NCBI RefSeq assembly: GCF_964355755.1
Contig: NC_092670.1
Coordinates: forward strand, 16,553,201 to 16,617,200
From: Antedon mediterranea
Lineage: Eukaryota > Echinodermata > Crinoidea > Comatulida > Antedonidae
DNA length: 64,000 nt
Direction: 5' to 3'
The notes under the pieces were generated by a model. That model was not told the DNA's origin and did not search any database. It saw only the letters and a list, made by a program, of their open reading frames with translations. Below, in pieces: positions 613 through 63,944 of the stretch. The position numbers were made by a program, and so were the translations under genes. Positions within the stretch are counted from its first letter, which is position 1, and the number at the start of each line of letters is the position of its first letter.

Positions 613-1272
613 TTATTTAGCTTTTTTAGGTTTAGGGCTAGCTTTAACCTTTAACGTAGCTTTGTTACTTGGTCTTGTCTTTTTTCTCTTCTTAGAACCA
701 CTCTTCCTTGATTTTTTGCTTTTCCCCTTTTTGTCATTCTTTTTTGTACTGTTACTTCCCTTCTTTTTTGGGCTTAATCGTTTCTGCCGCGAGGTTGGTT
801 TATATGAAGTTGTCGACGCATCTGGTTTTTTCCCAACTTTAAAGCGACCATGAGCTCCACCCGATTCATCACCTTTAGGTCTTACAAACACTCCAGTTTG
901 GAGACCTTTAGTAAGCGCTGTTCGTACCATATAATTCACCATGTCTGGCCTAACAGTTTCGTATGTGGATAAAATGTACTTTTTTATAGCCATTCCTGAA
1001 CTGCCTTTACTTTCCTTTAAAGATTCAATTGCCTCTACACACATTAAAGTTGAGTTTGGATGAGTAGGCTTCCATTTTGCTTTCTTTTTCTTCTTTATTT
1101 CTGTAGTTTTAGTACTACGAGGTCTAGGCCTAGTATTCCTACCAGTTACTGCGCCTGCTTCCCCTTCTTCTCCAGGGTCCTCTTTTTGTGTCTCTTCGGC
1201 TGCAGCAGCATCGTCGACTGCCTCCACATTATCTTGCTTTATATTGTCCTCTTTCTGATCCCCGTCTGACAT
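613..1272 (-). CDS. Linker histone H1 variant (germline/embryonic-type winged helix)
   Basis: Intronless 219-aa linker histone, a nuclear protein that binds nucleosome dyad and linker DNA. The start chosen is the ATG at 1272 (MSDGDQKED); the frame stays open a little upstream, but that stretch does not look like histone. Residues 1-40 are acidic and alanine-rich. Residues 45-70 are basic. Residues about 70-147 form the H15 winged-helix domain (AIESLKESKGSSGMAIKKYI, then KGLQTGVFVRPKG and GGAHGRFKVGKK). Residues 150-219 are a lysine/serine-rich tail rich in SPKK-like and KKK clusters. The pattern AIKKYIL with GVFVRPK and GRFKVG looks closer to B4/H1M/H1oo and invertebrate protamine-like PL-I proteins than to replication-dependent H1; that is from memory. 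The gene is divergent from the SOCS gene. No histone stem-loop was seen. Confidence 0.9.
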   Translation of the reverse strand: MSDGDQKEDNIKQDNVEAVDDAAAAEETQKEDPGEEGEAGAVTGRNTRPRPRSTKTTEIKKKKKAKWKPTHPNSTLMCVEAIESLKESKGSSGMAIKKYILSTYETVRPDMVNYMVRTALTKGLQTGVFVRPKGDESGGAHGRFKVGKKPDASTTSYKPTSRQKRLSPKKKGSNSTKKNDKKGKSKKSRKSGSKKRKKTRPSNKATLKVKASPKPKKAK

Positions 1273-1910
1273 TTTTAAATGATTATTAAATAATTTAAAA
1301 CGTGTACAAACCACAGGGAACGATATTTTTCTTAAATAAATATAAAATATCTCAAATTAAATTGTTTAATGCACAGCTTATTTCGACGTACCTCTACAGA
1401 AAAACTAAACAAAGACAGGTATAGGCCTAGTCGTTTGAGGGCGCACTGATCGATGCTACATTTTTTTTTCGTTTGGCGCCACCTAAAGTTTACTTTCGCT
1501 GAGTATCAAGATAGTGAACTGAGTACAATATTTGGTAATCTAGAACAAGTATACCCGTTTTTAAGGCCCATTTATACTAGGACGATAGACGATCGACGAT
1601 GAATAAAATAATAAACATATATTTTTCATCCTAGAACTATTATGATAAAATTATGCTGTATTTTTAACAAATAAAAATATTGTCCAGCGGTAGATTGTGC
1701 ACTAAAACAATCAGATATTTATCCAATCCAATAATTATCCAATCCGATATTTGTCTAGTTATGTTTTTAAAGAAAATGTTCAAATGGTTTTTCAAAGGAA
1801 CGTAACCATCAAATTCCCTTTATTACTAGTCAGGTTAAACCCATATAAAAATTCAAATGCAAGTTACTAAAAAAAATACAATTCTGTCAGTGACTAAAGG
1901 GATTTCAATG

Positions 1911-1998
1911 GAGATACAAAATAAGCAAAAAGCTAAAGTAAAACGATAAAGTAAAACCAGGGAGTTGAACAATTCCCTGGTAAAACAGCCAGAAAAAA
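1911..1998 (+). repeat. Dispersed repeat, inverted copy near 17.3 kb
   Basis: The stretch with AATGGAGATACAAAA, AAAGCTAAAGTAAAACGATAA and CAGCCAGAA recurs as its reverse complement at about 17283-17345 inside a CLEC16A intron. Family unknown. Confidence 0.6.
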
Positions 1999-2366
1999 TT
2001 GCAGAGCTTTCGAGCACCACTAGCCTTTCATAAGTACATTTATATTATAATATTAATAAAATATATATTATATTAATAGTGTAATAATATTTAACCTGGA
2101 TCGTGACAAACAAATACACGACAATTTTAAACGGATATATATTATACCGGTATTTAAAAGCTGTTGATTAAAGATCTATCTTGAGTAGTTTGGAAGCTTA
2201 CTTAAAATATATATAGACTTTTAGAAGCAATGCGTTTTGGCTATTCGTGATATAAACAGCTGGTTTTAGCTTTCTATACGGGTCTTTTTTATACCTCCAT
2301 GGTTACAGCCGCATTCAATACTGTATTCATTTCCTAAGCGATTACATCTATTACTATTATTAGTAT

Positions 2367-2391
2367 TTCCACGAAAAACCGCTTCAAAGAA
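2367..2391. promoter_or_regulatory. Two adjacent STAT-like sites upstream of SOCS
   Basis: TTCCACGAA (2367-2375) and TTCAAAGAA (2383-2391) both match the STAT consensus TTCN3GAA and are 7 bp apart. They lie about 450 bp upstream of the SOCS start codon. Vertebrate CISH and SOCS promoters use clustered STAT sites for negative feedback; the same role here is inference. Confidence 0.45.
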
Positions 2392-2718
2392 AATCAATCA
2401 TTAGGGGGCGGTCCTAAGCAGTCATTCACTAATAACGAATCGTGATTGGTCAATGGGGTAATTGCTTATGCGGATGGTAATCTCAGTTCAAAACCGCAGG
2501 GATTTTTTTTCATTACAGTTTGTAAGGGAATCTATAGGAAGTGCTTTAGATTATGTATACAAGAGTTTTCCCTGAACTCATGTCTACTATGTTTAAATAA
2601 TTTGACGAGTTCAGTCGTAATATCATTACTGACAGATCATTAGGGAGCTGAGATCGACGATCGTCTCATGCGCAGAGACTTCATCAGCAGGTTCATATGA
2701 TCACCGTTGTTGTTTCTA

Positions 2719-2727
2719 TTCTAAGAA
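2719..2727. promoter_or_regulatory. Third STAT-like site upstream of SOCS
   Basis: TTCTAAGAA matches TTCN3GAA. It lies 112 bp upstream of the SOCS ATG, just before the splice acceptor at about 2766, so it would be in an intron or proximal promoter depending on where transcription starts. Confidence 0.4.
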
Positions 2728-2838
2728 TCAGCCAACATACTATTATAAACTCATTTGTTTTCTACAGCTTCATATCATTTGGGATTTAGCAGCAGTCGGT
2801 TTCAACCTTCGTATTTTTATTTTTGAAAAGTGAACCAA

Positions 2839-3480
2839 ATGAAACAGAACTGCGGACTATTAACTACTTCTTCAACTCCTACAGACATCATTTTGAAAAT
2901 GACGTCTTGTAACAGAAATACTCAACTAGATGTTGACAGTATAACCAGGACTAATCAGATACTAGAGGAATCGAGTTGGTACCACGGAAGCATTACTTAC
3001 AAACAAGCAAGACAGAAGCTAAAAGATGCAAAAAATGGAACGTTTTTGGTACGAGATAGTTTGGACCCGAATTATTTATACAGTGTAAGCGTGAAGACCC
3101 CTCGAGGTGCTACCAGTGTGCGAATAATATACCACAGGGGCAAATTTGCTTTGGATTGTGAAGACGCATTAAAGCCATATGCACCTAAATTCGAATGTGT
3201 TATAAAGTTATTATGTCACTACATTAGTGCATCGACTGGGAAGAGTAAATTACACAAGGACTTGAAAACATCTAATAATGGACAATTGGTGTGGCTAGAA
3301 CCTTCGGGACGCAAGGACACTGAAGCAAAGTTAATGAGACCTCTATTAACTAATGTACATAGTTTGCAACATTTATGTCGATTGGCTATCAATAAGAGCT
3401 GTGATAGATGGGATATCATGGACTTAGACCTCCCCTTATCACTGAGGTATTACGTTGATCGCTATCCGTACAAACTCTGA
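2839..3480 (+). CDS. SOCS2: Suppressor of cytokine signalling, SOCS2/CISH-type
   Basis: Protein of 213 aa that should act in the cytoplasm as the substrate receptor of an Elongin B/C-Cullin 5 ubiquitin ligase, damping JAK-STAT receptor signalling. The SH2 domain spans about residues 47-153. It begins WYHGSITYKQA and contains FLVRDS, where Arg72 is the phosphotyrosine-binding arginine, and SVKTPRGATSVRIIYHRGKF. The SOCS box spans about residues 173-213, with BC-box SLQHLCRLAINK and Cul5-box LPLSLRYYVDRYPYKL. Both boxes resemble SOCS2/CISH more than SOCS1/SOCS3, and I see no clear kinase-inhibitory region. The ATG at 2839 is chosen because an in-frame TGA lies just upstream. The coding region is one exon; an acceptor near 2766 suggests a spliced 5' UTR. 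It may be the single pro-orthologue of vertebrate SOCS1/2/3/CISH, so the symbol is approximate. Confidence 0.93.
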   Translation: MKQNCGLLTTSSTPTDIILKMTSCNRNTQLDVDSITRTNQILEESSWYHGSITYKQARQKLKDAKNGTFLVRDSLDPNYLYSVSVKTPRGATSVRIIYHRGKFALDCEDALKPYAPKFECVIKLLCHYISASTGKSKLHKDLKTSNNGQLVWLEPSGRKDTEAKLMRPLLTNVHSLQHLCRLAINKSCDRWDIMDLDLPLSLRYYVDRYPYKL

Positions 3481-4694
3481 TATATCTAACCACCAATTAC
3501 TGGTTTATCAACTCAAATGTAAATAATGTATATAGTGTTTTCTTGTATTTATTGCTTGTACATATTATATTGTTAATATATTTCGTATTGCCCTATTGTT
3601 ATAACTGCTATTGTAGTACAAGCATTTAATTTAAGAACATGATTGATCTACAGAGATATTCTAGATCATTAACTCAGTCAACGTCTCGCGATTTCAGCAA
3701 TCTTTCCTCCATTATGCCAATATTGACAAGACAATCATTTGACCTGAAACCTAAATGAACGGTTGTTGAATAATTGAATAATCATAATATTTGCCGCCGG
3801 AGAATTGCGATTCTTGTCACAACACGTGAGCAAAGCAAAGAACCATTCATGATTGTTAAATAATATTTTCGAGAAATTACAGTGCAACGACAGTAAAAAA
3901 ATGACAGTTAAAAATTTGTGTTCGAACAACGAGACATAGAATAGAATTCATACAAGATGAAAGCCATTTAGCTTTAGAACAACGTGACGTTGTTTCAAGT
4001 CTTCGAGTGGGTATTATCATTTCACAACTCAACACAGCAGGAAAATTCATACAAATATGCGTATAGAAAGCCGAACGAATAAGAACATATTTTCACAGCC
4101 TGCTGCCGACGTCCGCCATTCTTAAATCTTAAGTCCAATTATAAAGTCTTAATTCGTTGTGTGCGTTTGCTTGCTGGAATCCATTGAAACCAATGAAAAT
4201 GCAGTTTGTTTGTCCTCGTTTTTTCTTTCCAGGAACTCTCGCTTTACGAGGTCAAATCGTGGGTTTACTGGTTCCCGGACTTATTTTCAATTCATGATTA
4301 TAATTTATTTATGATTTAAGCTGTCGATTCATTTTTTAACTGAAATATCGTTTATGCTTGGAAGTACTTATTATTATTTCTCTGTGACTTTAATACCATA
4401 AGTGATAGTTAATACATAATTTATCCATGTTTAATAATAATAATAATAAATTAATATGGTAATTTTGATAATGAATCAAATCATTTTTAAACAAAATAAT
4501 TTTCTATTAGCTTTAAATACGCACATCATGTGTTAAACTTATAATTATTGAAATAAAATAAACACATTGTTAGTCTCTGAACCGGCAAGAAAGAAGCACA
4601 ATATTATGTACAATGTTGCCAATGTCACTGTGGTTAAAAGAAAAGAAAACTGCTCTAGACTAGAGCAGCAATGTTTACTTTATTAAATAATGGT

Positions 4695-14342: not shown

Positions 14343-17300
14343 TCAAATGTAGGCTTCTTCACGCAAACCAGCTGCACACTCTGTTGTGGAATCAGGTTGT
14401 TGTCCAGATTGTTGTTCTTTATGTAATGAAACATGAAGTTGTTGCTGATCAATAGATTCTTGATCTTGTTGTGAAGATGGAGGAAGATCAGTTCCTTCAA
14501 TATCTTCATTATTGTCCTCAAGTTCAATAGGCTTGTTATTTGATCCAATGTTTGTTTGTTCTTGTTCTGCTGATTCAAAATCATCTTTTTGGTCATTATT
14601 GTCAGAGTTTTTATTTGGAACTTGAGTTCCCAAATGTTCACTTTCCAAATGTTCAGTGTCAACATCCATTGAACCTGAACCAGTAGATTCAAATGGATCT
14701 TCTTCATACTCCTCTTGCAATGCTATCGGTACAGTCTCAGTAGACAGGGTGGTCATTTCAATAAAATGTGCTTCATCTGGTGTAGTGAGATCTTGAGCCA
14801 TCTGTGTGAGTCTTGACAGAGATGCTGTGGCACTTCCAAGAGCTTGATCTTCACCAGGAACTACCTCTGCAGATGTAAGGTTTAAGTGAATTCCTGGGGG
14901 AGATTTGCCAAGTGGAATAGGAGAAGAATCACTATGCATCTCTCCACCAGGATGGCTTAAGCTTCTGACTCGAGCAGTCGAAGCTGGAGGGAGGATCCTT
15001 GGTGAACCGCTCTGTGATTCAACAGCAGCGTCAGTTATCAAAGAAAGAGGTGGTGCTTGTGCTGGTGTCAGAGATGGTGGAGTGATATCTGTGTTTTGAT
15101 GAATATGTAATTTTCTTGATGTTTCCACATGATTGTCTTCAACAAATGATGTGGTGGTGTAAGCAGATGGTGACATGGCATCTTGAGCTTCTTCAACCTC
15201 TGGAGAGCTATTTACTTTTGCTTTGGTTGATTTGACATGAGCTGGTGCCCCTGTCATTGCTACAGGCGGTGTTTTTCTATGAACGCCTAACAAACGGTGC
15301 ATAAAATTAACATGTTAGCAATGTGGGTGTTGTGCAACATAAATAAACTAAACTCATGAAAAGAACATGTGCTATAAATGTTGTTTTAGTAAAATAGGTG
15401 TGAATGGGTGATGTCATTAAAATGTCTTAATGATAAATGTTGATCAATGGATTGACAGTCTTATGACTTACTTGTGACATTATGATGGGAACCAGTTGAT
15501 ATCATTTCTTTTCCATCAGACCTACAAAGACAAGACATGATGTTAGCATGATAGTCGTTTGACTGCTGTAAATTAACTGGAAGTTTCCTATGTTTTTTGG
15601 GTTCATTTAATTTTTCATTTCATTTATTTATTAATTTATGGTCAAACACAGTAAAATATGTACATGGTTTAAAATTCTTTTTTGTTTGTTTAAAGTTAAA
15701 AATTCACATAAAAATATGAAAATGAGTTAAAAAGGTTAAAATTTTGTAAAATACAAATAAAACACATCATTTAAAATACAGATAACATGCATAGTTTAAA
15801 ATACAAAATACAAGCAAGATTTGTGTGTGTAAGGGAATAGCATAAAATGAACTGGTTGTGCAGTTGATGAAAAGACTATAATATAAGTTGGACAATTGAC
15901 TTCACTTAATACCAGGAATGGATTCAGGAATGTTTAAATTGGGAGTGTACTAACATAAAATATTAATAGTCTGTCAAAAATAGATTAAAATGTAGTTCCG
16001 TGACAATAAGCAATCAATATAGGTTGCATGTGCAGACATTATGCTGGAGGCTGCTTATTTTCCCTGTTGACTCAACCATTAATATGTTACATAACCTTAG
16101 GTATAATATGAAGCCCTGTGTGAAATTATTATAAATATGATATTTCCTTCTATAAATTGATAAATTGAATCATTTTTATCCTAAAAGCACTATTAAGTAG
16201 AACAGAAAAGACCAAATCTAGGAATAAAACAATTTTTACATTTTGTTACCACAATAAATATATTAAATTAACACGTATAATAGCATAAATTTCTATGATA
16301 AACTCATCAGTTGTGCTTTACATACTGTTATTATATTATAAACCAATCTAAAAAATACAGCAATAATTTTGGATCTGAATTTGACTATAAAATATTATCG
16401 GATTGCAATAAACACATCGACCAATCAGGGAACTGCATTTCATATCAGATACAACATCAAGGCTTTTCCAAGAAATTTAACAATGCAACACATACCTATA
16501 ATTATGCATAATAAAAATATACTTGTATGGAAATACATGTAGTTTGTTCAGACCCACATTTTAACACATAAATCATGTTTCGACAGATAAAGTATTATAC
16601 AACAATTTTATGCTGGGCTGGGTGTGACTGGCGGAAAAATATAGACACGCATCACATAAAACACTAATATTAAATGAGTCTAAACAGATGTCATATCAGA
16701 ATTGTTGTGTGTGTCTGGACATTTTATATATATTTATTATTAAACAATATTCCACAACCACGATGTCTGTTTACACAGGCATTTCAATACTGAACATGTC
16801 TGAACAGTGGCATATATAACACCATGTGTAGATATCATCAATGTCTGATACACACATTGAAAACATTAAACACATTTTTTACAAACATATATTATTAAAT
16901 ATTCTGCATAGTGTATTAAACAGTTAAATAAAATGAATATTTAAAATATTAAATCCTTCATTTCTAGAATGTTCTACAACATTAGATAAGTGAGTGAGCT
17001 TTATCATAATGTACAAATAATAATATCAGTTTCATTGAAAATGATATCGTTATCAGAATAGTGGCTAAATAAAGTTTGCGATCGATAGAAGGTCTTTACA
17101 ACAACGGCTCAACACTGAATATTGATTGAGGGGAAAACCCAGGGTATTTCCAAACAAATTGTAATAATAAAACTACAAATAGCCATATTTAACAAAACCA
17201 TACTGATAGAATAACAGTGAAAAATCAAAATATTAATTCTTTAAATACCTTTTGTATAATAATTAATATACATATAATGTTCTGGCTGTTTTACTTTATC

Positions 17301-25000: not shown

Positions 25001-28000
25001 AAACATATCTTAGTTTTTCTTACTTTTAAGATTTTATTCAGATAATTTCTTATTTTATTTGGAATTTCAATGCGATTAAGTCATTGTTATCCAGTCTTGT
25101 AGGAATACATATTGAAAATCTGTAATAACATGTCATATTGGCACTGGTTCAAGTAAGCCGTCTAGGTAATTCCTCTGCACTGTTTTTAATACTAAGCGGA
25201 AATTATGTGCGTTGGCATGATCAAGTGTACAATGTCTGACAACAACTTCTGCAAACTTTTAAATTGATTTGTATTACTTGACACTAGCACAATGGCCAGG
25301 ACAATGATAAAGATAAATTGATTAAACTTTTTAGGAACGATGCCTCTTATGAAACCAATTTCCTGTCTAATTTCTAGAACACCTTGATCGGTGGTGGAAG
25401 AGGCGTGGCATAAACAAAAGAGGGCACTAATCGCACATGGAGAAGAAAACTAAACAAAGAAACAACTTGGGGATTGAATTGCTCACGGCGGTTTATGTAA
25501 CTGACTGACAAACAATTGGTGGCAGCAAACAAATATAAACCAAACTAGAATAATTTAAGAACTGTAGAATAGGATCATCAACTTACATTGCTGTGGAGGT
25601 AGCAAATGGATCTAATTTACGAGATGCACCAGCAGGAACTGCCATCCCAGGTCGTGATGAAAAGGCAGCAGAGAATGACCCACCAACTGGGGAGGCTGGA
25701 GGTGGAATTTCCAACAGCAACGCCAAACGCTCCATCTTCATCTGCCGTACTTTCTGACGACCTGGAAGAAGGATGCTCTTTTAATAATGCTGTTTAGATC
25801 TCTAAAATGCTGGTCACCAGTTTTCTCCCACTCAAGTCCAACAAATTAAGCAAAGTACTAAATTATTGATATACTATAAGATGTAATTAATCTTCTAAAT
25901 ACAAAAAAGTCAAATAAAATGGTATTTTGACAAAATATAGCCTTTGATTGCTCTATGTTTTTAATGGTGAGGCCTAACCTACCACTACTACACAAGTGTT
26001 TATTTTATGTGTTATTTTCTTATACCAGTTGGAGCCAATTTATTCCAGCAAATCTTGCTGGTGAAACCTGCTTTAGGAGAACACTGGGTCACTGAACATC
26101 ATTTTCAGCATGCATAGAAACACCAATGATGACAAACTTTACTACATTCTAATCCTTTTTATGTCATTATACCATTTTTTCCAAAAATGATGGTAAAAGT
26201 TTGATTAACTGTACCTTTTAAAAGTCTTTGCTTAGCTGCCATACACCTTATATGGTCATCAAAAATAAACCGTGCAGCCAATAACGGGAAAGGTTTGGCG
26301 TGGCTACTTATCAATCGTTTGTGAATCGTAACATGCAGTGATCGACTATCATCCTTGTCGCCTTGAACTTCGACATCCTAAAATAATTTAATTATACTTT
26401 AATTTATAATTTGATTATAATGTTGGGTATTATGATGACAGATGACAATTATTGAACAGTCATGAAAAGGTAATAATAAAGATAACGTAACACTTTACCG
26501 TCTACTTCCAATGCGAAGCTCCCAAATATAAATGATCCAATACAAATTTGGGGTATATCCCAAAATCTCAACACTATTCAAGTTCAACTTTAACATCATC
26601 AATAAGTACTAACCTGAAGTGGTCCCACAAACTTGACCACACCCCATCCAAGTCTTTTAACATCAGGTTCAACTAAAATCACTTGGTAACTATCCATAAC
26701 AAGGAAACGCCGCTGCCTCTGACTAAAATCAAAATAAAACAAAAAATTACAGGTATGTCTTTGAATACAAATAAAGGTGTGTAAATGTTCTTTTGGAATT
26801 ATCATTACTGATGTTTTGATAGTTGGTTGATCCTCTGCAACCTCTAGGATAAATATTCTTAGGAATCTTTAATAGGATTGTGGTGCTTAGTCATTTTTAT
26901 GTACAATAGCAACTTTAAGATGATATGTCTGTGGTAGCATGAAGATGTCTGTGGTAGCATGAAGATGTCCTCGGTAGCATGAAGATGTCTGTGGTAGCAT
27001 GAAGATGTCTGTTGTAGGGGTGATGTTATCTGCTGTAGGGGTGATGTGGTCTGTTGTAGGGATGATGATGTCTGTTGTAGGGATGATGATGTCTGTTGTA
27101 GGGATGATGATGTCTGTGGTAGCATGAAGATGTCTGTGGTAGGGGTGATGATGTCTGTTGTAGGGGTGATGATGTCTGTTGTAGGGGTGATGATGTCTGT
27201 TGTAGGGGTGATGTTGTCTGTTGTAGGGGTGATGTTGTCTGTTGTAGGGGTGATGTTGTCTGTGGTAGCATGAAGTTGTCTGTGGTAGGGTGATGTTGTC
27301 TGTTGTAGGGGTGATGTTGTCTGTTGCAGGGGTGATGATGTATGTTGTAGGGGTGATGATGTATGTTGTAGGGGTGCGTGTGGCGCAGGGTGTTGGACGT
27401 TGGACTACTGATCGTGAGACCGAGGTTCGAATCCAACTCTCGCCGCATTGCTTGTATCCTTAGGCAAGATACTTTACTTACGTTTGCCTCTCTCCACCCA
27501 GGTGGTGTATAAATGGGTACCCGGTTAGATCAAGACACAACTTTGCGCTGATTACTAGCTGCAATATGGGAGTATGTTTCCATACGTGTTTGATCCAAAA
27601 AATGACTGGGGTAATAATGTTCAGCGCTTAGAGAAGCTTGCTTGTAGAGCGCTATATAAGAATGAACTATTATTATTAGTATTATGATGTATCTTGTAGG
27701 GGTGATGACGGTAGAGATGGTATATGTCGTAATAGTAATAATGATGAAAGGTAAATATGGTAGCCATGGTGGTGATATTTCTTTATGTGCTGGTAACAAT
27801 AAACTATATTATGGTGGTTATAATGATGATGGTTGGTGACAGTGTTGTACTGGAATGTTTATTGCACGCCCTGTAGCATTATAACTTACCCTTTGTCTTT
27901 AGGTAATACAGAGCAAGCTATTAGATCACTATTATCTGCAAATGAAAAAAATAAATGTTTCAGGGAATCGGTGCATAAGACATAAGGGAAGTCAACTTAG

Positions 28001-31000: not shown

Positions 31001-34000
31001 TTAGTCTACAGTTAGGTATAAAAAAAAAGTAATTTGCATATTGATGACGTCATGTGACGTCATTACAGGTATTTTGGATTTTGTGTGTTTTATCGAATCA
31101 ACAAAAAAATTATATTTTCTGTAAGAAATTCTTATGGAATACGTTTTTCCAACTGGATATTGATAAAGATACGTATACCAAATAAAAATATTTAAAAAAA
31201 TTGAATTATTTTTATTGTTTTATAAAAATTATGCACAAATCAAAGTTTTGGGGCAAAATTATGCTTCTCAAAACAACTTTTCAAGGTAGAAATACTATTA
31301 TGCTATACTATATATAATTAATTAACTATAGAGGGCGCATTATTTTCAAGACAATAATACAACTATAGAGGGCCATTTTTTTTGCTGGAAAAAAATTTTA
31401 ATGACTTGCATAAATATTCAAGTTCGTCGAAAAAATATAGAGGGTGCTATATATTATAGGCAAATACGATTAAATGATTGTTTTGCCCATACCCGGTATT
31501 ACCGTGTATACATATTTCAACGACGTCTGTTTATACCCGGTAGTACCGGGTATACGCAGTGAAGGGGTTAAAAAGACTGATACAGTTCACATGGCAATTT
31601 AGTATTTAGCTCTTTATTAATGTAATTTTTGTAATGTAAAAAGCTGGGTTCATATTTATGTGCAATTTAATTATACAGGTTTGTGTTTATGTGAACAGGG
31701 TATTGTGAACATGTAATTCTTTTTAAACCATTTAGATTTTGAATTAGTGTTGAAATATTAAAATATACTGGCCGACCTCTTCAGTCAAAGACTGGTCTCC
31801 CAGAGGACCCAGTTATGAGTGGCTGTGATGTACTAGTACACTGGGGTAACTCCCTACTCGTCTCGAAAGATCTACTAGGTTCTTTAACGTGCACATGAGC
31901 TGGATGTGTAACATTGGAACTACGGTTTATATAGTAGTTCTTATCCGAGAAGATAAAGTATAGTTACAGTTAAAATAAAGTATAATACAGTTAAAATAAA
32001 GTATAGTTACAGTTTTACAACAAAAAAATTCTTACAAAAAACACCGCTCGACATTTCAAAATTAATCATTGTTCTTTTGATTAATTTATGATTAATTATA
32101 AAAAGACGTCCTTTAATCGCAAAGATACATAAAAATCAGAGATAGTTCTTTAATTATGAATCACATGCCCATTTTTTCACTAGTTAATTGTATACACAGC
32201 ATTTGAAGGAAGACATGTGTACCTTTCCAACAATGTATTATTTGCCAACAAATATTAATCTACTAATTAAAAATGGCATTTAAAAATGGTAAATTTTGAA
32301 CTTTAATGTGCTGTAGCCTGTTTGTCTGTGACCTCAACCTGAACTGTAGGCATGCAACTGAATACCCTCTAGAGACTTACAAGTGAAAATTCTTCCACAA
32401 TCTGTTGATTCGCGTCAACCAATCAAATGGCAAGAATCCAAAATCGTTTAACCGTGAGCCCTCATAAACTCTTTTCCCAGACGTTTTTTGGGTCCAGCAG
32501 CTGGGACCTATAAATTATAGTCGAGTTTCCATTTTAGCAAAACTGTCGGCCTTAGATACTAAAGCTACCGCTATGAAACAGCTTATTAATGAATATGTCC
32601 TCCTGGGACATACCTGGCTAGAGCAGCGGCGCGAAAAATAAATAAAATATATACAGCAATAAACATTACAATGCATCAAGCAAGAATTGTGAGCTCTTGA
32701 TTGACTCCCTTTAAATATTTTGTTTGTAATTACCAAGAACATATTACTAGCTTAAAAGTTACACAATGAACAGGTAATGACACACAGCTAATGAAGCTGT
32801 CATTTAGAAATGATTAATAATTGACTCACTGCATGTTTCAATGAAACTATATAATTGAAAATAATAACAGCTCATAATAAATGGACATTTGTCATGTCAT
32901 TCCATTATTAAATTAACATTGACAATGATTTATAATATATCTAGAATATAAAATTAGAAAAGAGAAATTCAATGTAATTTAATCGTTTTTCAGAATTTAA
33001 AGGATGTTGATTTAAAACTACCCTTGATATATTCCCCTTTCCACCCTTGATATATTCCCCCTCCCTACCCTTGATATATTTCCCCTCCCCACCCTTGATA
33101 TATTGCCCCTCCCTACCCGTGATATATTTCCCCTCCCCACCCTTGATATATTCCCCTTTCCACTCTTGATAAATTCCCCTTTCCACCCTTGATATATGTC
33201 CCTTCCCCACCCTTGATATATTCCCTTTCCACCCTTCATATATGTCCCTTCCCCACCCTTGATATATTCCCCTTTCACCCTTGATATATTCTCCTTTCCA
33301 AATTCCACCCTTCATATATGTCCCTTCCCCACCCTTGATATATTCCCCTTTCCACCCTTGATATATGTCCCTTCCCCCACCCTTGATATATTCCCCTTTC
33401 CACCCTTGATATATTCTTCTCTCCACCCTTCATATATGTCCCTTCCCCACCCTTCATATATTCCCTTTCCACCCTTCATATACTCTCCTCCCACCCTTGA
33501 TATTTCCCCCTCCCCATCCCTGATTTTATACCTCCATCCATAAAATAGCCCACAATTGATACAAGCCCTTACCCATGATAGTAACTTAACATTAGTACTG
33601 ATAAGCTCACCCACACCTCACCCCTCGCAAAATATAGAGAAATGATCATCATGCCTCATGCTGACCCGTAACTTCACTTCTTAAAACCAAGAGAATCAAC
33701 TTTATAACCAAAGTAACTTGAGATAATTCTCTACTCATAACGACTTCTCCAAGATTATTTGAGAAGTTTTTTGTGTTATGGAAAGATTGGATGACAAGCG
33801 TGTACTTGGATTTGAGCACGTTTGCGGATTAACCGTAACTCTACTTAAGATTTACTCAACATCTTCCTGGAAGTGCCTAATCAATATTGCAACCTAAATC
33901 TGACAATGACCAACTAATGAGCATTCAATATGCCTATAAATATCAGCGGAAACAGTTTAAAATACATAAAACACATTACAAAACATGATGAATCAAGTTT

Positions 34001-53901: not shown

Positions 53902-56900
53902 ATGCCAAGATTCTTCATAGCCAATCAGCTTAAACGTTTGTTTCGTTTGCATGGCACCCCACTCCGCCCTCAAGCGGACCTCTCACATATTTATGCACCA
54001 TCCTGTTCAGCTCACAATCTGCCACTGTCTGGTGTTTGTTGTTACCATAATGTTCCTGCTGCGCTGGTGAGTTTTAAGCAAGTTGCATGATTTTTTAGAG
54101 CTACAATTTGCATGAAAGATTCAGAGTCCAGGGTAGAAAAATATAAGATCCAGAGTAGAGAAATATAAGATCCAAGGAGTAGGGAAATGTAAGATCAAGG
54201 GTAAAGGAATATAAGATCCTGGGTAGGGAAATATAAGATCTAGGGTAGAGAAATATAAGATCCAGGGTAGAGAAATATAAGATCCAAGGGGTAGGGAAAT
54301 GTAAGATCCAAGGGGTAGGGAAATATAAGATCCAGGGTAGGGAAATATAAGATCTAGGGTAGAGAAATATAAGATCCAGGGTAGAGAAATATAAGATCCA
54401 AGGGGTAGGGAAATGTAAGATCCAGGGTAGGGAAATATAAGATCCAGGGTAGGGAAAATGCAAATTTTGGGGTAGTGAAAGTCCCCCCTTGTTATATGCT
54501 CTACTCTGTCTGGTACATGCTATACATGTAATACAAATCTTTGCATGTTGTTGTTACCAATTAATTTCAATGGAGAATCTGTGGCAAAATTCTGGATGTA
54601 GCAACAATTACCCAGATTCAGAAATGTGGTGATTTATTATATTATAGCATGATCATTTATAATGTCTTGTGTATTAATGTGATTTATGTAGTAACATACA
54701 TTCTAGAAATTAGTAAGTATTAAATGCATGCATTCTAAATCATTCCTTATTATTAAAACATGAACAATTTTGTATAAATTTACTAAGAAATTTCTTTTTA
54801 TATTTTAGTATGTAGTAGTATACATTTATATATTAATTTCCACATAATTCATTTTTTCATGGTCATTATTGGATACAGAATCATTTTTAAAGCTTATAGT
54901 TTTATCAATAATACTTTAAGTACGGTAAGGAATGTTTCTAAGTATGGTATGCAGAATTACTTATGATAATGCTTACCATTTGGAGTCAGTTTAGGATTTA
55001 ACTTACATAGCCTTGGGATAAATGAAGCAGATGTTATTGCTAAAGTACAAATTACAGTTTATTTAAAGCTTGGAGGAAATATTTCCTCTTAAAGCAGTTT
55101 TTTTTTTTAAATTCAAGTTTATGAATTAAATAAAAACTGCTATAGTTAACTCTACCAAGCCGCACACACTTGGGGTAGCCCATGATGTTTCATTTCAGAA
55201 ATATGTCTGAGATTGGGGGCGGGGGTGATTAAAGCTTAGTTCTCACTAGCATGCAACGCAAATAATTTGACCAAAGACAGTGGATAAATTCAAAGAAGCC
55301 ACTTCTTGTTTGCTTGCATGTCTGTCCTTTTCTTGTGTCCTATGTTTGGCAGTGGCGTAACACAAAGACCCGAGCCCCCGATGTTTGGCTTAAATTCATT
55401 TAACCTCAAGAAAGTCCAATGCATAAATTCAGAAAAGCCACTGCTAGTCAGTACTCTACTTGCGTCTGTTTCCCTTCCTCATGTCCTATGTTTAGCTGAA
55501 AGTTCTAGTCTGGTTGTGAGGTTGGTGAGGACACACGAAACCCAACACTTTATTTTGTTATTTCCTTAGATTCTAAAAAATAATCAAACAGCTGTAGCAC
55601 TTTGGACTTTATAAGACATAATATTATCAGTGATGTTTAAAAAAAGTGATACATTAAAAATGAAAGAAATATTGTACTTTTTTAGGTTTAGAAGGATCAA
55701 AGTTGATTTCATACAAGATTGTTCCTTTTACTCAATTATTTTGTTTTCACCTTACATCCTGTTCCCTGTAGTAATATGAAGCGAAGGTCTAGTTAGGATT
55801 GACCTAGTTTATGAGTTATAAAGTGGGCCAGAGACCCATAGAGGTCAAATGTCAACCTTTGGAATATCTTGCATTATTATTTACATATGTTGGTTGCTCG
55901 CTTGTTTACATTGCTTGACTTGACAAGAATGGTTTGTGGAAAAAAATAATCTTGATTTATATTATGAATGAATTATTGCTTTCCTTGATCTTTAATCCAC
56001 ACGGAAATGACAATTTAACCTCAGTGTCATAAATATTTATCCCAATTATTGGATTATATAACTGCAGCGCATACTGTACTGTACTATAGTACATTTTAAG
56101 CTCCCTAGAGAGATGTTGGTTCTTTGCTCCCTATGGAGAACTTATTAGTGATCTTGTTATAGAGTGCTAATCTCAAGGGTATACTGTACATTATTCTCCA
56201 TGGAAAGAAAGCAGTACAAAGTGCATTACCTAGAATTTATTATATAAACCCACATGCAAAATGGTCAGTGAATTTTTGCCCTACGCTCTTGCTTATTATA
56301 AAACAGTAAAACTAATACTTTTTTATACTAAAAATAATGAACATATTTTTAGAGGAATTAACACAAAAGTTAATACCACCTCAATTAAATTCTTGTTTAC
56401 CATACCACTGTAGAATTCTGGTCATGTGATTGATTTGAGGAGCGATACAGTGACCAAACCGGATGCTGAAATGCGTAAAGCAATGGCGGAAGCAGAGGTT
56501 GGAGATGACGTTTACGGTGAAGATCCTACTGTCAACAGTAAATACAAATTGTTGCATTAAATAATTAAGATATCTCTCTTTTATAAGAGAGGGTGTTTGT
56601 GCGTTTGTTATGATCGTAATGGTCCTGGGAAAGGTTTTAAACTACACTTTAAAATCACCCTGAGTACTGTATATCTTTCGTAGTGATAAATAAAACGATG
56701 ATGATGTGGCGATGATACAGGCATCTGGGGTGGTGGTAAAGGTAGCTCATCTGTTTATTTCATTTGTTTTAAATATTTTGATTTCAGAGTTGCAAGAAAG
56801 ATGTGCCTCGTTACTTGGTAAAGAGGCAGCTTTGTTTGTACCTTCAGGGACAATGGCTAACCTTATTTCAGGTTTGTTACTACAAAATTGTACTCCATAT

Positions 56901-59900
56901 AAACAATTGTCTTTTTATGGGTGTTTTGCAGGAAATGGCAATTCCTAAAAACAACAGGATGCTATCTCGGTCGGTTTTCCTTTATGTGCTTTGGAAGCCT
57001 ATTAGACTTGCCCTGAGTCTGTATTTATTGTCTTTTTTATGTTAGTCCACCAGTCGACGTTTATGTAACGCCATATGTGCCAAAATATTTATCTTTTTAC
57101 TAATATTAAGTCAAAACTCCATCTGGAACCCAGACTTAGCCTACTTATATGCGCTATAAGAATTAATGATGTAGCTATATAAATTGTCATACAGAGGCTA
57201 AGTTTGTGTGCTGTGATGTCATATTACATGACACATACATGATTCGAACCAAAACCCCTGCAGTCTGAAATCCACAAAAATATTCTAATCAGCGGTGGAT
57301 CCAGGATCTTGAATGACAGAAGCCCAGGGCCTAAAAATTGTAAAATGAAGTTCTGTTGTTATCCCACCTTCGATTAGCCTATACTAATGTTGACTGATTT
57401 TTATCTTTCTCTTGTCAGTAATGTCACACTGTCCTGGACGAGGGGAAGAGGTCATACTAGGCGATCAAAGTCATATATTTATCTGGGAACAAGGTGGAAT
57501 ATCACAGGTATTATTATGGTTAATTATAACAAAATACTGCAGCACCTTTTTTTGTACACCTATAATGTGACATCAATGCATGAATGCTTTAGTGCAGTTC
57601 AATGTGTAGTCTCAGTATATGTGTATATAAGTATGTGTAGATGTGTTACCTTCATTTAGCTTGCAGGAGTCCACCCGCGAACTGTCAAAAACAAAGATGA
57701 TGGGACGTTCGATATCAAAGAAGCCGAGTCCAAGATCCGAAGTGATGATGTACACCTAACAGTCACGCGGCTAATATGCGTAGAAAACACATTTGGGGGT
57801 AAACCACTCCCTCTACAGTTTCTGAAAGATGTAAGTAATGTTATTTATTTAAATTGTATGGCACAATATTCTATACACCTACAGTAAACTGGAGAAGGAT
57901 AAAGAAAATGTTTCCTTAAAAACTATTTTGAAATATAATAATCTCAAAATGTCTAAAGTTCTGTCTGCACTATCAAACTTTATATCAAAAATATTTGCCC
58001 ATATATGGACATGATGATGTCATATCACTACCATATTTAAGCACATCACTACCATATTTGGGCACACACTTTTTTGTCAAACTAGTTTGATAGTGTAGAC
58101 AGTGCTTTACAATCAATAAGTTTCAAATGTTTAATGGCAAAACATTAGCACAACAACAATGTTTTTTAATGTCTTTTATTAGGTACGTAAAGTTGCGGAC
58201 AAACATAATCTATCAGTTCACATGGATGGTGCTAGGTTGATGAATGCTGCTGTTGCAATGGATACAGCACCTCAAAATATCTGCCAATATGCAGATTCAA
58301 TATCTATGTGCTTCTCAAAGGTTTGTTTATTTTTTATATATTTATGGAGGAGGTTTTGGAAAAATGACAAAACAAAATCTAACAAAACGTTAATTACCAA
58401 TAACAGAATAAAACCAAAGTTCATTCTTGATAAGTACACTATTAAGTAGGTCAGTGGTCTAGGTATTAAAGCTGGGCAGGTCCTATCTGAGAATTAATTT
58501 AGTATTAGTATTCAGTAGAACAATGTCAGATTAGGGCTAAACATCTGACCCACATGCTGTCATGAGGCTTATGCAGTGGCATTTGTTTAGCTACGAAGAT
58601 GTCTTGATTCAAGATTTGCACCCAGGATTGTGGGATGTAGGATGTTAGCAACCATGTTATGTGCCAAAATGGTTTATCTATTCTTAAACACTGTTGTTGA
58701 TAATAATCGAAGCCATACCATAATTAAGTTAGTCTATGTTCTAGTAAACTATTTCAACAGTATATCCTCTGGGACCGTGCCCTAATACTGAAAGTATGGT
58801 GAGACTGCACCACAATACAATCAAGTTACAGATAAGATAACAACATTAGTTTGTGGGTTCAACCACCTTGTTAAAGTTACTCCTGTTTACCATCCAGGTA
58901 ATTGTACTTGAAACATTTGGGTTTATGTGTTTGTGTAGCTTAGTTGGAGCTATCATAGCTACATTATTTATGGCAGTTTCAATGATTTATAAGAGGGTTA
59001 AGCTTCACACTGTGTATAGATTTATAGCAGACCACGACCTATGTAGAGGCCTAATGTTATGTATCCTTGTTGGCCGTGAGCATAGCTACGTTGATTTATT
59101 GCATGTTTCCCTGAAGTATAACTGGGTTATGCACCACATTTAAATGTCAACTTTTATTTACATGATGTGACTACAAATTATGACTATAAATATGTCTTTT
59201 ATACTGTACAGCAGTCATACACTACATATGTAGATCCAGAAATTGTGGGGGAAGCGATTTCAATGCTAAAGATAGGACATAGCACTCCATTTGTTGATTT
59301 CTAGGCCCCCAACCCCCTCTATTTCAAAACACTGGATCCACCACCGCACTAATCTGTATGTTGTATAACTACAGTAGATAAAGTTTACTTATTTTTACTT
59401 CTTTGGTAACAGGGTTTGGGAGCGCCTGTCGGTTCAATCATTGCTGGTAGCAAAGCATTTATAGACAGGTTAGTTCAATTTTTATCATGAATATAAATCT
59501 ACTCTTCAGACTACTAAAAATTGAATGATTATAAAACAGCTCTTCAATAATTAAATTCTCGACATATTTTAATGATCTTCGAAAAATGTTTTCATCTGTT
59601 TTTTTATTAACCATCTGTATATCATTATTTACGTTAAACCATTCATGAATATGTATGTGTGCAACGTTTTGACTTGTTTCCAAGTCTTTATCTGGCAATG
59701 ACTAGATGTTAGTGGTTGCCAGGAGTACTGTAGCTTTGCTAGTTGTAGAGCAGCGCCCCTATTAGTAACCTTGGTCTGCGATTTGCCGAAGTTCTTCAGC
59801 TTTTGAGGTAAAATGAGTTGTTTGCACACTTACATTTTCATGAATGGTTTAATGTTAAGAATTATATGCAGATATTTGAATGATCTCTGGAAAAACGTCA

Positions 59901-61157
59901 TGAAAGATCTAACACAAAAATATGACAGATCTATAAACTTTAAAATCTAATGAAATGAATCTTACAATTACTTTTGATAGATCTTTAAGGCATCGTAAAG
60001 TACTTGGAGGTGGCATGAGACAGGCAGGAATCTTAGCAGCAGCTGCATTGCTTGGCCTAGACAGAGCAACAGAAAAGATCAAAATGGATCATGATAATGC
60101 TAAAAGACTTGCACAAGGTAAGGATATACTTACAGGGATTTAATTTAAAAAAACTTTAATTAGTGAAGAGCTAACAACTCACTTATATTATAGTAATTAT
60201 ATTATAGATTAGTATTATGAAATAAAAAAAAAGATGATGAAAGTAATGCAGTGTAATATCAATAAAAGATACTGTATTCATATTATTCAACTGTATTAGA
60301 TTAGCATTAACTAATGTACATCTATAACCACCGTCTCGCAGCCTAACTGAGCGTACAATTAGTATTTGTGTCGTACAGCTCCACTCATTTGTGTGTCCAC
60401 GACAACAGGGCTGCGATAGACCAGTACAACAAAGTATATACTATACTTTATCAAAAGATGGCACACTGGGTTCATTAAAGTGCATACAAGTTAGATATGT
60501 ACACTGGACCTCCAGTTTTAAATCCTCATCCAAGAACACTACGGTCAAGGAGAGACTTGAATGTGTGATGATTTTATGATTTGCGGCACCTCAGTCTTAG
60601 CCAATCTACTACTCGACTTAGTCAAATCTTAAATTTGTGTACTAGATGTATAACTTAGGCTCTGTCTACACTATCAAACTAGTTTGACAAAAAAAGTGTG
60701 ATGGCCTAAATATGGTAGTAATATGCCTAAGTATGGTATTAATATGAATCATGTCCATATATGGGCATGATGATATACATGTGTAGGCAGGTTGGTTTAC
60801 TAACTTAAATAAAAGTTGCTTACAAAATCTCTGTTTACTGTTACAGGAATTCTTGACATTAAAAACGACCACTTGAGTGTTTGCTTAGAAGATGTCCTTA
60901 GCAACATGGTCATGATTAAGGTTAATAAAGGTATCAACCCGATGTCAATCTGCCAGGCAATGGCCAGGGTCACCGAGGAAGAGGAAAGCAAGCTTGGTTG
61001 CATCGTCAACTTGAAGATGTTTCCTGGCTCCAAGACTACGATCCGCGCTGTTGTACATCAAAATATAAGCAAAAGTGATATCGAATTAGCAATAAAGAAG
61101 ATACAAATAGTCCTTGATAGTTTTGATGATGGAAAAGGATATAGTGTTGAAGAATAA
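53902..61157 (+). CDS. THA1: L-threonine aldolase, 9 coding exons
   Basis: PLP-dependent lyase that splits L-threonine or allo-threonine into glycine and acetaldehyde. Coding exons: 53902-54066, 56414-56537, 56788-56871, 57419-57507, 57660-57830, 58183-58320, 59413-59468, 59981-60117, 60847-61157. All junctions are GT-AG with consistent phases (1275 nt, 424 aa). Exon 1 (residues 1-55) has Arg/Lys but no acidic residue until Asp27, as in a mitochondrial leader. The core starts [14 protein letters not shown] at about residue 59. His143 ([12 protein letters not shown]) probably stacks on PLP. Asp226 and Arg229 lie in [10 protein letters not shown]. Lys257 ([14 protein letters not shown]) is the PLP Schiff-base lysine, at an exon boundary. 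[10 protein letters not shown] follows. The catalytic set looks intact, unlike the human pseudogene THA1P. Exon 1 has an in-frame upstream stop at 53887. Confidence 0.93.
54116..54470. repeat. 22-24-bp minisatellite (AAGATCCAGGGTAGGGAAATAT type)
   Basis: About 15 tandem units in aldolase intron 1, starting 50 bp after the exon 1 donor. Two unit types, CCAGGGTAG and CCAAGGGGTAG, alternate in partly repeated order. A long minus-strand frame across it encodes only the repeat. Confidence 0.92.
57956..58107. mobile_element. AAGCTCTGTC MITE, copy 13
   Basis: Left end AAGTTCTGTCTGCACTATCA after TA, right end AGTGTAGACAGTGCTT before TA. Two ACTACCATATTT units lie inside. In aldolase intron 5, about 75 bp from the exon 6 acceptor. 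Confidence 0.8.
60658..60790. mobile_element. AAGCTCTGTC MITE, copy 14 (3' truncated)
   Basis: GGCTCTGTCTACACTATCAA after TTA, then GTGTGATGGCC and two GGTA(G/T)TAATATG units. It decays near CATGATGATATACATG. In aldolase intron 8, about 60 bp from the exon 9 acceptor. Confidence 0.7.
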
Positions 61158-61445
61158 TGAGTTCTTATTATGGTTTAGGGATCATATCAAAATTATTCTA
61201 CTGCTTTTTCTGCAATAACATGATATTTAGTTAGTTTTAATGTACCAGGTTATGAGTTAAACATGCCATAGTCTCTAGTTATTGTCTGTTGTGTATTCCT
61301 GTACGTGTACCACCAGTCGACTTTTTGATTTGATTCTGTAAATTTTATTTTATTATGTATGAAATGCCATGTGTGCCAACAAAAAAAAAGCTTGCTATAT
61401 AAGCAGCTTGTTACTGCAGTAACAATCATTTTGACATGGTCTCTA

Positions 61446-62146
61446 AAGCTCTGTCTACACTATCAACCTTTATGTGACAAAAAATGTGATGTGCCCATAT
61501 ATGGACATGATGATGTCGTATCACTAGCATATTTAAAGATGTATTGTCCCTTAAACACAAAAAATGAAGGTCAAAATATTCTAAATTTAAATTGGCCATA
61601 TCAAAGTAATATTAAAGTTATTCACTTTAAGTCGAAAATTCGAGCCAAAAACAACAAGTTTACGTAATTAACAGGTAAATTAATTTAATTACATTTCGTC
61701 TGGAAAATCGTCGCAGGCGAAAGTAAACAAAGATTTCAAACCCTGTGTATGCATTATACATATGATAATTAGGATTGTTTACAACTTGTCACGGTTGAGA
61801 AGGTGTTTTCACACAGATCGCGAAGAAGTTTTATGATTATGCATACAGAGTAGCCAAACAAGCGCGTTGCATTATGAGATATGTTTTGATCGAAAACTTG
61901 AAGTCTAAGTTATTTTTTTTACAAAAAAACGTCTGTATTTCAGTTAAATGATTTGTTTTTTCGACTAATTTTTGGTGAACGTTAATAACTATTATGATAC
62001 TTCAAAACGACCCACTTTTTTTTTTAAATATTAAAAAAAAAAAAAAATTTTGGAATTAGTCAAAGGGACAATGTATCTTTAAGCATATCACTACCATATC
62101 TGGCCAAATTTTTTGTCAAACTAATTTGATAGTGTAGACAGAGCTT
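61446..62146. mobile_element. AAGCTCTGTC MITE, copy 15, split by another element
   Basis: The left end AAGCTCTGTCTACACTATCA follows TA (61444-61445). The right end TAGTGTAGACAGAGCTT precedes TA (62147-62148). The middle is interrupted at a TA by the 544-bp element at 61536-62079; without it the two halves form an ordinary copy. Confidence 0.85.
61536..62079. mobile_element. Nested TIR element with AAGATGTATTGTCCC ends
   Basis: Inverted ends AAGATGTATTGTCCCTT and AAGGGACAATGTATCTT (one mismatch) sit exactly between TA dinucleotides (61534-61535 and 62080-62081), which match the TA of the host MITE. It is 544 bp and AT-rich with no coding frame. It must be younger than the MITE it split. A Tc1/mariner-type origin is inferred from the TA duplication. 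Confidence 0.85.
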
Positions 62147-63440
62147 TAAAGTATAGAATAAAAATGATATGTGCATTCTAACTCAATCAAATTTGCAGGA
62201 GATTCAAGAGAGAATGCTGTTACAGTTTGGTTGTAAACCATTCTACCCAACACTCTATACTTTGCCATATGCGAACACAAAACCTTGTCAAAATAATTTA
62301 TTCTCTACATTTTTATATCCGTTTTAAAGTAATTAAGGCAGTGTGGCAGATCTAGGATTGTCAAAATAGATTTTAAAAAGTAGTTAATAATTATCATTTT
62401 AGCCACCCTGGTACTCCTAAATCTAAGTGTTAATATTTTGATGGTGAAAGGTAGTCGATAATAATTTCTGTGCAATTTATCTATCAACACAAGATCATTG
62501 AACAATAAATTAACATACACACACTTATTTCCGCTGTCTGTAAAAATGAAACCATATTTTGAATTATTTCTATATACAGTAATTTATTAAATTCAAACTA
62601 AACATATATTAGTTGTAAAAAACTATACCACTATCTAAATAAAGACCACTTTGGGACCAGAGGCTTCGTAGATCTTTAAGTAGAATAATTTTTAATAAAA
62701 CACAGTATAGGACCTACATTTTACTTATACTGTAGTACTTCAAGGCAGGGATCAAAGGTTGACCTGCCTTAAATATACCTCCAACATGATCTTATAACCA
62801 AGGCTACAATAATGCTAGGCCTAGAAAACATGAATACTGAATGGAAAATACACAAAAAACAACACAATTACATATTAACACAAACAGTTTCATAAAAACG
62901 TAAAATCAGAGTACGTAAAATGTAGATCCTACTGAAACGGTGCTTAATATTTTAACAATGTGATTGCTCTTTAATTAGATGATTAGTGTTGGTAATTTAA
63001 AATATACAACTATATTGCTACCATTAAATTTTATTTTTAAATCATTTTTTTCTGATATAGTATACTAAGTGGAAATACTTTAATAAAATAGAACTTGGCA
63101 CCATGTTTATTTATTTATTTTTAAAAAAGCTCACCACTCACCAAATTTAATCGTTACACAGTACTGTACTACATTCTGTATATTACCTGCTGTGTACTTT
63201 TTTTAATTTTTTTTTTTTATTATTAAAAAAAAATGTATTCTAAAATATGTACAGTTATCCCTGAGCATGTTGCATAGAATCATTTTACAGTTACTGCAGT
63301 AATTTCAGCAATAGCAACCATAATGTAGTTGCTGATGGATTGTAGAATAAAATTTAATTAAAAAAATTGAAAATACAATTCGTAACACTAGGTAGGCTGA
63401 ATTGCTGTACTGTTCTAAAACATCTTGACACAGAATTGAA

Positions 63441-63536
63441 CACTACATTATCAAACATTAAGTGACAACAAAAATGTGATGTGCCCATATATGAACATAT
63501 ATTTGTCAAACTAGTTTGATAGTGTAGGCAGAGCTT
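63441..63536. mobile_element. AAGCTCTGTC MITE, copy 16 (internal deletion)
   Basis: CACTACATTATCAAAC, then AAAATGTGATGTGCCC, then CAAACTAGTTTGATAGTG and AGGCAGAGCTT. The central GGTAGTGATATG units are missing. Confidence 0.7.
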
Positions 63537-63599
63537 AATTCTTGTGAATGTAGGGCATGCAACCAAGCTACTGAGAGCCACTGCTGGTGTAGAACCAAT

Positions 63600-63715
63600 C
63601 CTTTGGGACACCCCCATTAAAGGGACACTTTCCCCATGAAAGGGAAAATATGTTTTGACACTATTATTCAACCCTATATTCAGTGGAGATACCCCTATTA
63701 AGGGGACACTTAGGG
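63600..63715. repeat. Dispersed ATTAAAGGGACACTT repeat
   Basis: Two units: GACACCCCCATTAAAGGGAC and ATACCCCTATTAAGGGGACA, with TTTGACACTATTATTCAACC between. Same family type as 29340, 42265 and 50225. Confidence 0.5.
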
Positions 63716-63743
63716 TTTAAAGGTGTTCTGCATCTCATACAAC

Positions 63744-63944
63744 TTAGTGCTCTATTAAATTTCCTTGACTATCCATATCATCATTCCTTTGTGCGAATAG
63801 CTTCCTCCCATTTACTTTTGCTTTCTTTTCATTCTCATCGCCTACAGGTGTACATATGTTTTCTTTGTTATGTTCGGACAGTGGCAAATTAAAACAATCT
63901 CGACACACGGCCATGTATTTATCGGCGCCACCAATGACTTCAAC
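63744..63944 (-). CDS. TK1: Thymidine kinase 1, cytosolic, last coding exon (partial gene)
   Basis: The exon encodes the last 66 residues of TK1, which phosphorylates thymidine to dTMP in the cytosolic salvage pathway during S phase. It starts after a TAAACAG acceptor with VEVIGGADKY, which carries substrate-binding residues, then VCRDC (the second half of the structural zinc site), then HNKENICTPVG, then GRKLFAQ, ending IEH and a stop. The KEN triplet lies where vertebrate TK1 has its APC/C-Cdh1 degradation signal. Upstream exons with the P-loop and lid lie beyond position 64000, so the gene is cut by the window edge and not truncated biologically. Tail-to-tail with the aldolase gene. Confidence 0.9.
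   Translation of the reverse strand, partial: VEVIGGADKYMAVCRDCFNLPLSEHNKENICTPVGDENEKKAKVNGRKLFAQRNDDMDSQGNLIEH

Follow-up and report, generated by a model that had tools for sequence, protein, structure and literature searches.

Two neighborhoods of vertebrate type II SOCS genes have been described. SOCS1 lies with NUBP1, CIITA, DEXI, and CLEC16A, and SOCS3b lies with BIRC5 and THA1P (PMC3296744); the human 16p13 cluster reads CIITA-DEXI-CLEC16A-SOCS1 (PMC3634488); and the mouse aldolase gene is located between Birc5 and Socs3, with SYNGR2, BIRC5, and TK1 nearby in both mouse and human (PMC555945). On a larger scale, segments of human chromosomes 7, 16, 17, 19, and 22 derive from chordate linkage group 15, a single group that predates the two rounds (2R) of vertebrate genome duplication (PMC3560075). 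Here we analyze a 64,000-nucleotide stretch of the Antedon mediterranea genome (C1:16,553,201-16,617,200, hereafter the window; assembly of 354,431,138 bases in 18 contigs), in which a type II SOCS gene, CLEC16A, an L-threonine aldolase (THA) gene, and the end of TK1 lie side by side.

Gene order in the window

From left to right, the window contains a linker histone H1 gene (−), SOCS (+), CLEC16A (−), threonine aldolase (+), and the last coding exon of TK1 (−). A first-pass annotation of this stretch had proposed the order and orientation of the last four, and domain, tblastn, and open reading frame (ORF) evidence bore them out. Its span of 613-63,944 was right in its four-gene content but not in taking SOCS as the start, as the H1 gene has its 3′ end at coordinate 613; similarly, TK1 is present in the window, though through its last coding exon rather than as a whole gene, the other matched exons lying past the window end.

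Read in reverse, the order TK1-THA-CLEC16A-SOCS contains TK1-THA-SOCS3 and CLEC16A-SOCS1 as sub-orders. We take TK1 to lie on the far side of THA from SOCS3 in vertebrates, and human CLEC16A and SOCS1 to be tail-to-tail, as they are here. The adjacency of CLEC16A and SOCS is common to the window and the human CIITA-DEXI-CLEC16A-SOCS1 cluster (PMC3634488). Genome profile searches were run exon by exon with the best candidates reported, and copy numbers were taken from matches with an E value of 0.001 or better. Among the matches listed, all three to PF09758 (CLEC16A), all five to PF01212 (aldolase), and all three to PF00265 (TK1) fall at this one locus, giving a single place each for CLEC16A, THA, and TK, alongside one type II SOCS and one locus for TMCC (the copy numbers of RAB40, SMURF, and globin lie outside this count).

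Because both vertebrate orders are found within the order of the window, and because CLEC16A, THA, and TK1 each occupy a single place, we consider it well supported, with a probability of roughly 0.87, that the window belongs to an un-duplicated version of a chordate linkage group that was later split by vertebrate whole-genome duplication. The duplicated segments would be human 16p13, 17q24-25, 22q, and 7p; after duplication, one copy would keep CLEC16A beside SOCS1, and another would keep THA1 and TK1 near SOCS3. From one genome compared with published vertebrate neighborhoods, we infer both the descent from one ancestral order and the branching of this genome before the duplications. A single ancestral block had already been put forward in the first-pass annotation, and the one locus each for CLEC16A, THA, and TK1, the published neighborhoods, the combined order, and the flanking genes described below all support it.

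The SSTR2/3/5 paralogon, which corresponds to chordate linkage group 15, involves the same human chromosomes (7, 16, 17, 19, and 22); the available text names SSTR, CYTH, SOX, and TNRC6 at chromosome scale, and contains no SOCS, CLEC16A, THA, TK1, or RAB40 (PMC3560075). The SOCS1-CLEC16A and SOCS3-THA1P synteny reported by Liongue et al. 2012 (PMC3296744) agrees with the window, while the available text of that paper and of Wang et al. 2018 (PMC6368001) neither joins both neighborhoods in an un-duplicated genome nor names an ancestral address. Among the open-licence papers listed in literature searches (in one case 15 of 704), none was seen to state the SOCS-CLEC16A-THA-TK1 order, and we make no claim that it is unpublished.

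CLEC16A (14,343-51,294, −), which is tail-to-tail with SOCS, was traced by tblastn with a working human CLEC16A sequence (most human comparison sequences in this study were working versions, not database records), yielding 16 exon matches from 51,294 down to 26,207 with 36-91% identity; three FPL-domain (PF09758) exons are located at ∼47.7-50.1 kb. Its probable last exon (14,343-15,314) has a weak CLEC16A_C match under the cut-off (E 0.0075). The L-threonine aldolase gene (56,414-61,157, +) was assigned from PF01212 exons, exon ORFs, and a PDB match, in which six exon pieces, joined by eye, matched L-threonine aldolase with an E value of 2.5e-63; its last ORF (60,813-61,157) is without a Pfam match and was assigned by eye. 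The last coding exon of TK1 (63,747-63,965, −) was identified by tblastn and by a match to PF00265 positions 157-176 (21.6 bits versus a cut-off of 20.6), and its C terminus is KEN-box-like by eye. The other matched TK1 exons are found at C1:16,617,239-16,620,313, beginning 39 bp beyond the window end. Tandem repeats are present at window positions 26,921-27,376, 33,020-33,514, and 54,127-54,457, and also upstream at C1:16,552.0-16,553.2 kb.

The SOCS gene and the SOCS complement of the genome

The coding sequence of the SOCS gene (2,839-3,480, +) is a single ORF that encodes 213 amino acids from the first Met. Within the 217-residue ORF, the SH2 domain (PF00017, residues 51-105) and the SOCS box (PF07525, residues 176-210) both score over the Pfam cut-offs, and the N terminus is short, as in the type II layout. 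Judged from these domains, the protein would most likely act as the SH2 adaptor of a Cullin-RING E3 ligase that damps JAK-STAT receptors: its SH2 domain would capture phosphotyrosine on receptors or kinases, and its SOCS box would recruit Elongin B/C and Cullin.

Two trees of 11 rows each (with working human sequences, the SOCS2 core letters agreeing with the PDB match, and SOCS4 left out) placed the window SOCS in the type II clade (CISH and SOCS1 to SOCS3), apart from SOCS5 to SOCS7, with support of 100/98 and 99/98. Within type II, one tree gave a trichotomy, and the other joined the window SOCS with SOCS1 and SOCS3 at 54/62. In the approximately unbiased (AU) test, a grouping of the window SOCS with SOCS2/CISH survived (p-AU 0.254), as did one in which the four human type II genes form their own clade (p-AU 0.254).

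The sequence of the window SOCS scores highest with SOCS2 and CISH. In the PDB, SOCS2 was the best match (E 1.5e-28), followed by SOCS1 (3.6e-20); this ranking tilts to SOCS2 because the matches to SOCS1 and SOCS3 end at, and so cover, the SH2 part alone. As the trees do not resolve the gene within type II, the SOCS box earlier described as SOCS2/CISH-like is no contradiction. Upstream of the SH2 domain, where SOCS1 and SOCS3 have their kinase inhibitory region, the stretch SITRTNQIL is SOCS1-like by eye and was aligned to SOCS1 in the PDB match, with no clear F-x-x-F. Further, the single-ORF coding region resembles that of vertebrate SOCS1 and SOCS3 to SOCS6, unlike that of CISH and SOCS2. 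Vertebrate SOCS1 and SOCS3 to SOCS6 also have a non-coding exon 1, and hence an intron in the 5′ untranslated region (PMC6368001), a layout that a candidate 5′ intron of the window SOCS resembles; its candidate 3′ splice acceptor (2,746-2,767, +) was proposed by pattern alone and is one of five candidates.

Genome-wide, 23 SOCS boxes over the cut-off and 53 SH2 matches were found. A box with a close upstream SH2 on the same strand, paired by eye, occurs in 4 of the 23, namely the window gene and genes on C2, C8, and C10. In the trees, the C2 gene joins SOCS7 (100/99) and the C10 gene joins SOCS5 (100/99), while the C8 gene falls in the SOCS6/SOCS7 group (88/88) and was labelled SOCS6-like by eye. 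The remaining 19 boxes comprise one in RAB40, one in an ankyrin gene, and 17 that were taken with 360 bp of upstream sequence, none of which showed an SH2 core motif in those 360 bp; a Pfam scan of 6 of these 17 identified four ankyrin, one SPRY, and one WD40 association. A box on its own exon with a more distant upstream SH2 was covered by the SH2 search alone, with pairing by eye. On the 0 of 17 count, a second type II SOCS was rejected, although these searches could overlook a gene that is split or has diverged; no type II SOCS other than that of the window was seen in the assembly. Invertebrates have been described as carrying one type II gene plus SOCS4/5, SOCS6, and SOCS7 (PMC3296744, PMC6368001), and the set seen here, one type II gene plus SOCS4/5, SOCS6, and SOCS7 types, is the same. 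This four-gene set also matches the complement proposed for the protostome-deuterostome ancestor, which supports the ancestral block.

Flanking genes and the proposed ancestral block

In the first 174 kb read, the upstream flank contains a SMURF-like C2-WW-HECT gene, with exon matches of 40-88% identity to SMURF2, and an LSM11-like gene. The downstream flank contains RAB40, which combines a Ras domain with a SOCS box and has matches of 41-89% to RAB40C, and, ∼43 kb past TK1, a globin exon (C1:16,663,296-16,663,589) that matches human cytoglobin best in the PDB (E 2.1e-10), with a nerve hemoglobin next at 1.2e-8. Amphioxus globins could not be linked to globin-flanking genes (PMC2975663), and the linkage of a globin with the TK1 block may bear on the origin of the vertebrate globin loci. 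An FH2 domain is also present downstream, and 19 kb beyond it lies an ORF of the same strand that includes two PDZ stretches; joined by eye, these suggest a delphilin-like gene. In a further 120 kb (294 kb in total), no other paralogon gene was recognized by eye among the 143 ORFs listed. A dispersed element, whose peptide motifs include LCLHYQT, YGHDD, and TSHFF (115 motif matches over all six frames), recurs throughout the 294 kb.

Besides SOCS, the region thus provides nine anchors: SMURF, LSM11, H1, CLEC16A, THA, TK1, RAB40, globin, and PDZ-FH2. We take the human positions to be 17q24 for SMURF2, 17q25.3 and 16p13.3 for RAB40B/C, 17q25 for CYGB, 7p22 for GRID2IP, 5q33 for LSM11, and 3q22 for H1-8. 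Six of the nine anchors have a human member on 16p13 or 17q24-25, for which a binomial calculation gives p = 6e-5 at a 10% chance each and 6e-4 at 15%; the calculation is a rough guide only, as six of the nine human positions were taken as given, the 10-15% was guessed, and the anchors were picked after reading the region. A chance or lineage-specific gathering of unrelated genes would explain why LSM11, H1, and the large EGF/CUB genes that fill the upstream side do not fit the human regions. Such a gathering is nonetheless highly improbable, given the agreement of the order with both vertebrate orders and the fit of six of nine anchors at p ∼6e-5 to 6e-4.

Several observations weigh against the ancestral block. 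Two of the nine anchor families, LSM11 (5q33) and H1.8 (3q22), are outside the paralogon by their human positions. NUBP1 is ∼6.7 Mb from the window, although the presence of this SOCS1 neighbor and of a NUBP1/2-like gene on the same chromosome (NUBP1 at C1, 23.3 Mb) in itself speaks for the block. Unlike in the human 16p13 complex, threonine aldolase and TK1 here directly follow CLEC16A; CIITA and DEXI, as well as BIRC5 and SYNGR2, were not recognized by eye in the 294 kb, where no dedicated search for them was made. Moreover, the tree does not place the window SOCS within type II, between SOCS1 plus SOCS3 and SOCS2 plus CISH. The assembly contains four NUBP/ParA-like loci (C1:23.33 Mb, C1:24.12 Mb, C4:35.35 Mb, and C9:5.60 Mb), of which the two on C1 are NUBP1 and a NUBP1/2-like locus; the C9 locus is a single frame of 314 amino acids, perhaps a retrocopy or outside sequence.

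Linker histone H1 beside SOCS

The linker histone H1 gene (613-1,272, −) is a single ORF of 219 amino acids with an H1.8/B4-like globular domain (PF00538, E 2.4e-19) and a Lys-rich tail (34% K). It is divergent from (head-to-head with) SOCS, with the two start codons ∼1.6 kb apart. Its best PDB match is Xenopus protein B4 (E 3.8e-14), followed by histone H1 (5.4e-6), HP1BP3 (5.7e-6), and H1.0 (5.4e-4). In a tree of 80 columns that included 8 of the 22 H1 matches in the assembly, it groups with B4/H1.8 at 97/99, in the same clade as a second H1.8/B4-type histone on C8 (L015, C8:9,190,300-9,191,200). Owing to this second gene, H1 was rejected as a clean tie of the block to human H1-8 on 3q22. 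We also rejected H1 as a forerunner of the protamine cluster by human SOCS1: the TNP2/PRM cluster presumably lies on the H1-equivalent side in the other orientation, place is the sole evidence for a relationship, and the papers listed in a literature search touching on it gave no sign of one.

SOCS1/SOCS3 and SOCS2 addresses

By address, the window SOCS matches SOCS1/SOCS3, being linked to CLEC16A and to THA1/TK1. The address part of the earlier claim, that the gene is a pro-orthologue of SOCS1 and SOCS3, therefore stands, but not its restriction to those two: no other type II SOCS was seen, so we regard the window gene as a candidate pro-orthologue, by descent, of SOCS1, SOCS2, SOCS3, and CISH. 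Two published models differ in whether one or two type II genes existed before the genome duplications, and the window offers a positional test, in that the gene of an un-duplicated genome occupies the SOCS1/SOCS3 address, with no SOCS seen at that of SOCS2.

On chicken chromosome 1 (44.87-45.13 Mb), MRPL42, SOCS2, CRADD, and PLXNC1 lie in this order within 265 kb, followed by CEP83 and TMCC3 (PMC6339939). In the present assembly, MRPL42 is found at C9:3.470 Mb, 29 kb from a plexin. No SH2 or SOCS-box match was found in the 29-kb interval, nor did its ORFs show one by eye; a SOCS box at a distance of 0.5 Mb is part of an ankyrin gene. The 57 plexin matches all fall on C9, in 17 clusters, and positions within 30 kb of a plexin cluster make up 0.32% of the genome and 4.4% of C9. 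The plexin cytoplasmic exons are locally expanded, with 12 of the 17 clusters at 12.2-14.1 Mb (C9:12.20-14.05 Mb), many with few exons matched. TMCC, which we take to have three genes in human, is present at one place, C1:5.29 Mb, on the SOCS chromosome and 11 Mb from the SOCS gene. This position counts against a clean split between the SOCS1/3 and SOCS2 addresses. Plexin and TMCC were accordingly rejected as a joint marker of one SOCS2 address (plexins on C9, TMCC on C1), and HemK was rejected as a CISH-side marker, its three matches, on C4, C11, and C9, being weak and below the cut-off. Each of C1 and C9 may have formed by fusion of older linkage groups.

An MRPL42-plexin pair on C9 without SOCS, together with the type II SOCS on C1, favours a SOCS2/CISH line that moved away before the first vertebrate duplication (1R). 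In its full form, a single type II gene was copied into the MRPL42-plexin area before 1R, giving rise to SOCS2/CISH, while SOCS1/SOCS3 stayed. We consider this account evenly balanced between being right and wrong. The 29 kb between MRPL42 and plexin parallel the chicken MRPL42-SOCS2-CRADD-PLXNC1 order (PMC6339939), the interval is empty of SH2 and SOCS-box matches, and merely 0.32% of the genome lies so close to a plexin cluster; yet, given MRPL42 on C9, the chance of a plexin cluster within 30 kb is 4.4%, TMCC, near SOCS2 in chicken, shares C1 with the SOCS gene (albeit 11 Mb away), and the HemK-family matches are weak and scattered (HEMK1 flanks CISH). Two pre-1R precursors have been argued for by Wang et al. 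2018 (PMC6368001), to which this account adds a direction.

The single-precursor model of Liongue et al. 2012 (PMC3296744) would instead derive all four vertebrate type II genes from one locus by 1R and 2R, with the SOCS2 and CISH copies moving later. While the detection of one type II gene in this assembly, the location of TMCC on C1, and the survival of a clade of the four human genes in the AU test (p-AU 0.254) are in line with it, the chicken neighbors of SOCS2, MRPL42 and plexins, are on C9 and not on C1, and the extra SOCS1b, SOCS2b, and SOCS3b of 2R vertebrates have been cited against a single precursor (PMC6368001); we find it unlikely. Less likely again is a bilaterian ancestor that already had separate SOCS1/3 and SOCS2/CISH genes, the second of which was lost here, leaving a window gene orthologous to SOCS1/SOCS3 only. 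The best tree of one run (54/62) and the one-ORF coding region shared with SOCS1/SOCS3 point that way, but the sequence scores top with SOCS2 and CISH, and one type II gene has been reported for sea squirt and, as data not shown, for sea anemone (PMC3296744).

A possible regulatory link between CLEC16A and SOCS

CLEC16A may perhaps have remained attached to SOCS owing to regulatory elements of SOCS that lie within its introns. Between matched exons of CLEC16A, the two longest gaps, ∼11 kb each (37,973-26,712 and 26,207-15,314), are in the SOCS-proximal part of the gene; both contain tandem repeats and could conceal unmatched exons, and length by itself is no proof. In human, some tissues show a correlation between single-nucleotide polymorphisms in the introns of CLEC16A and the expression of SOCS1 and DEXI; counting against this step, whole blood is without that correlation, and a contact between intron 19 and SOCS1 was not observed (PMC3634488). 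Taken together, an occupied SOCS1/SOCS3 address on C1 and an empty SOCS2 address on C9, a SOCS2/CISH line stemming from the pre-1R jump of a copy, and a pre-vertebrate CLEC16A-SOCS regulatory block maintained through SOCS enhancers within the introns of CLEC16A form a proposal that is possible as a whole, if doubtful. The gene order of an un-duplicated genome would in itself imply a great age for the CLEC16A-SOCS1 neighborhood, which carries human autoimmune risk variants.

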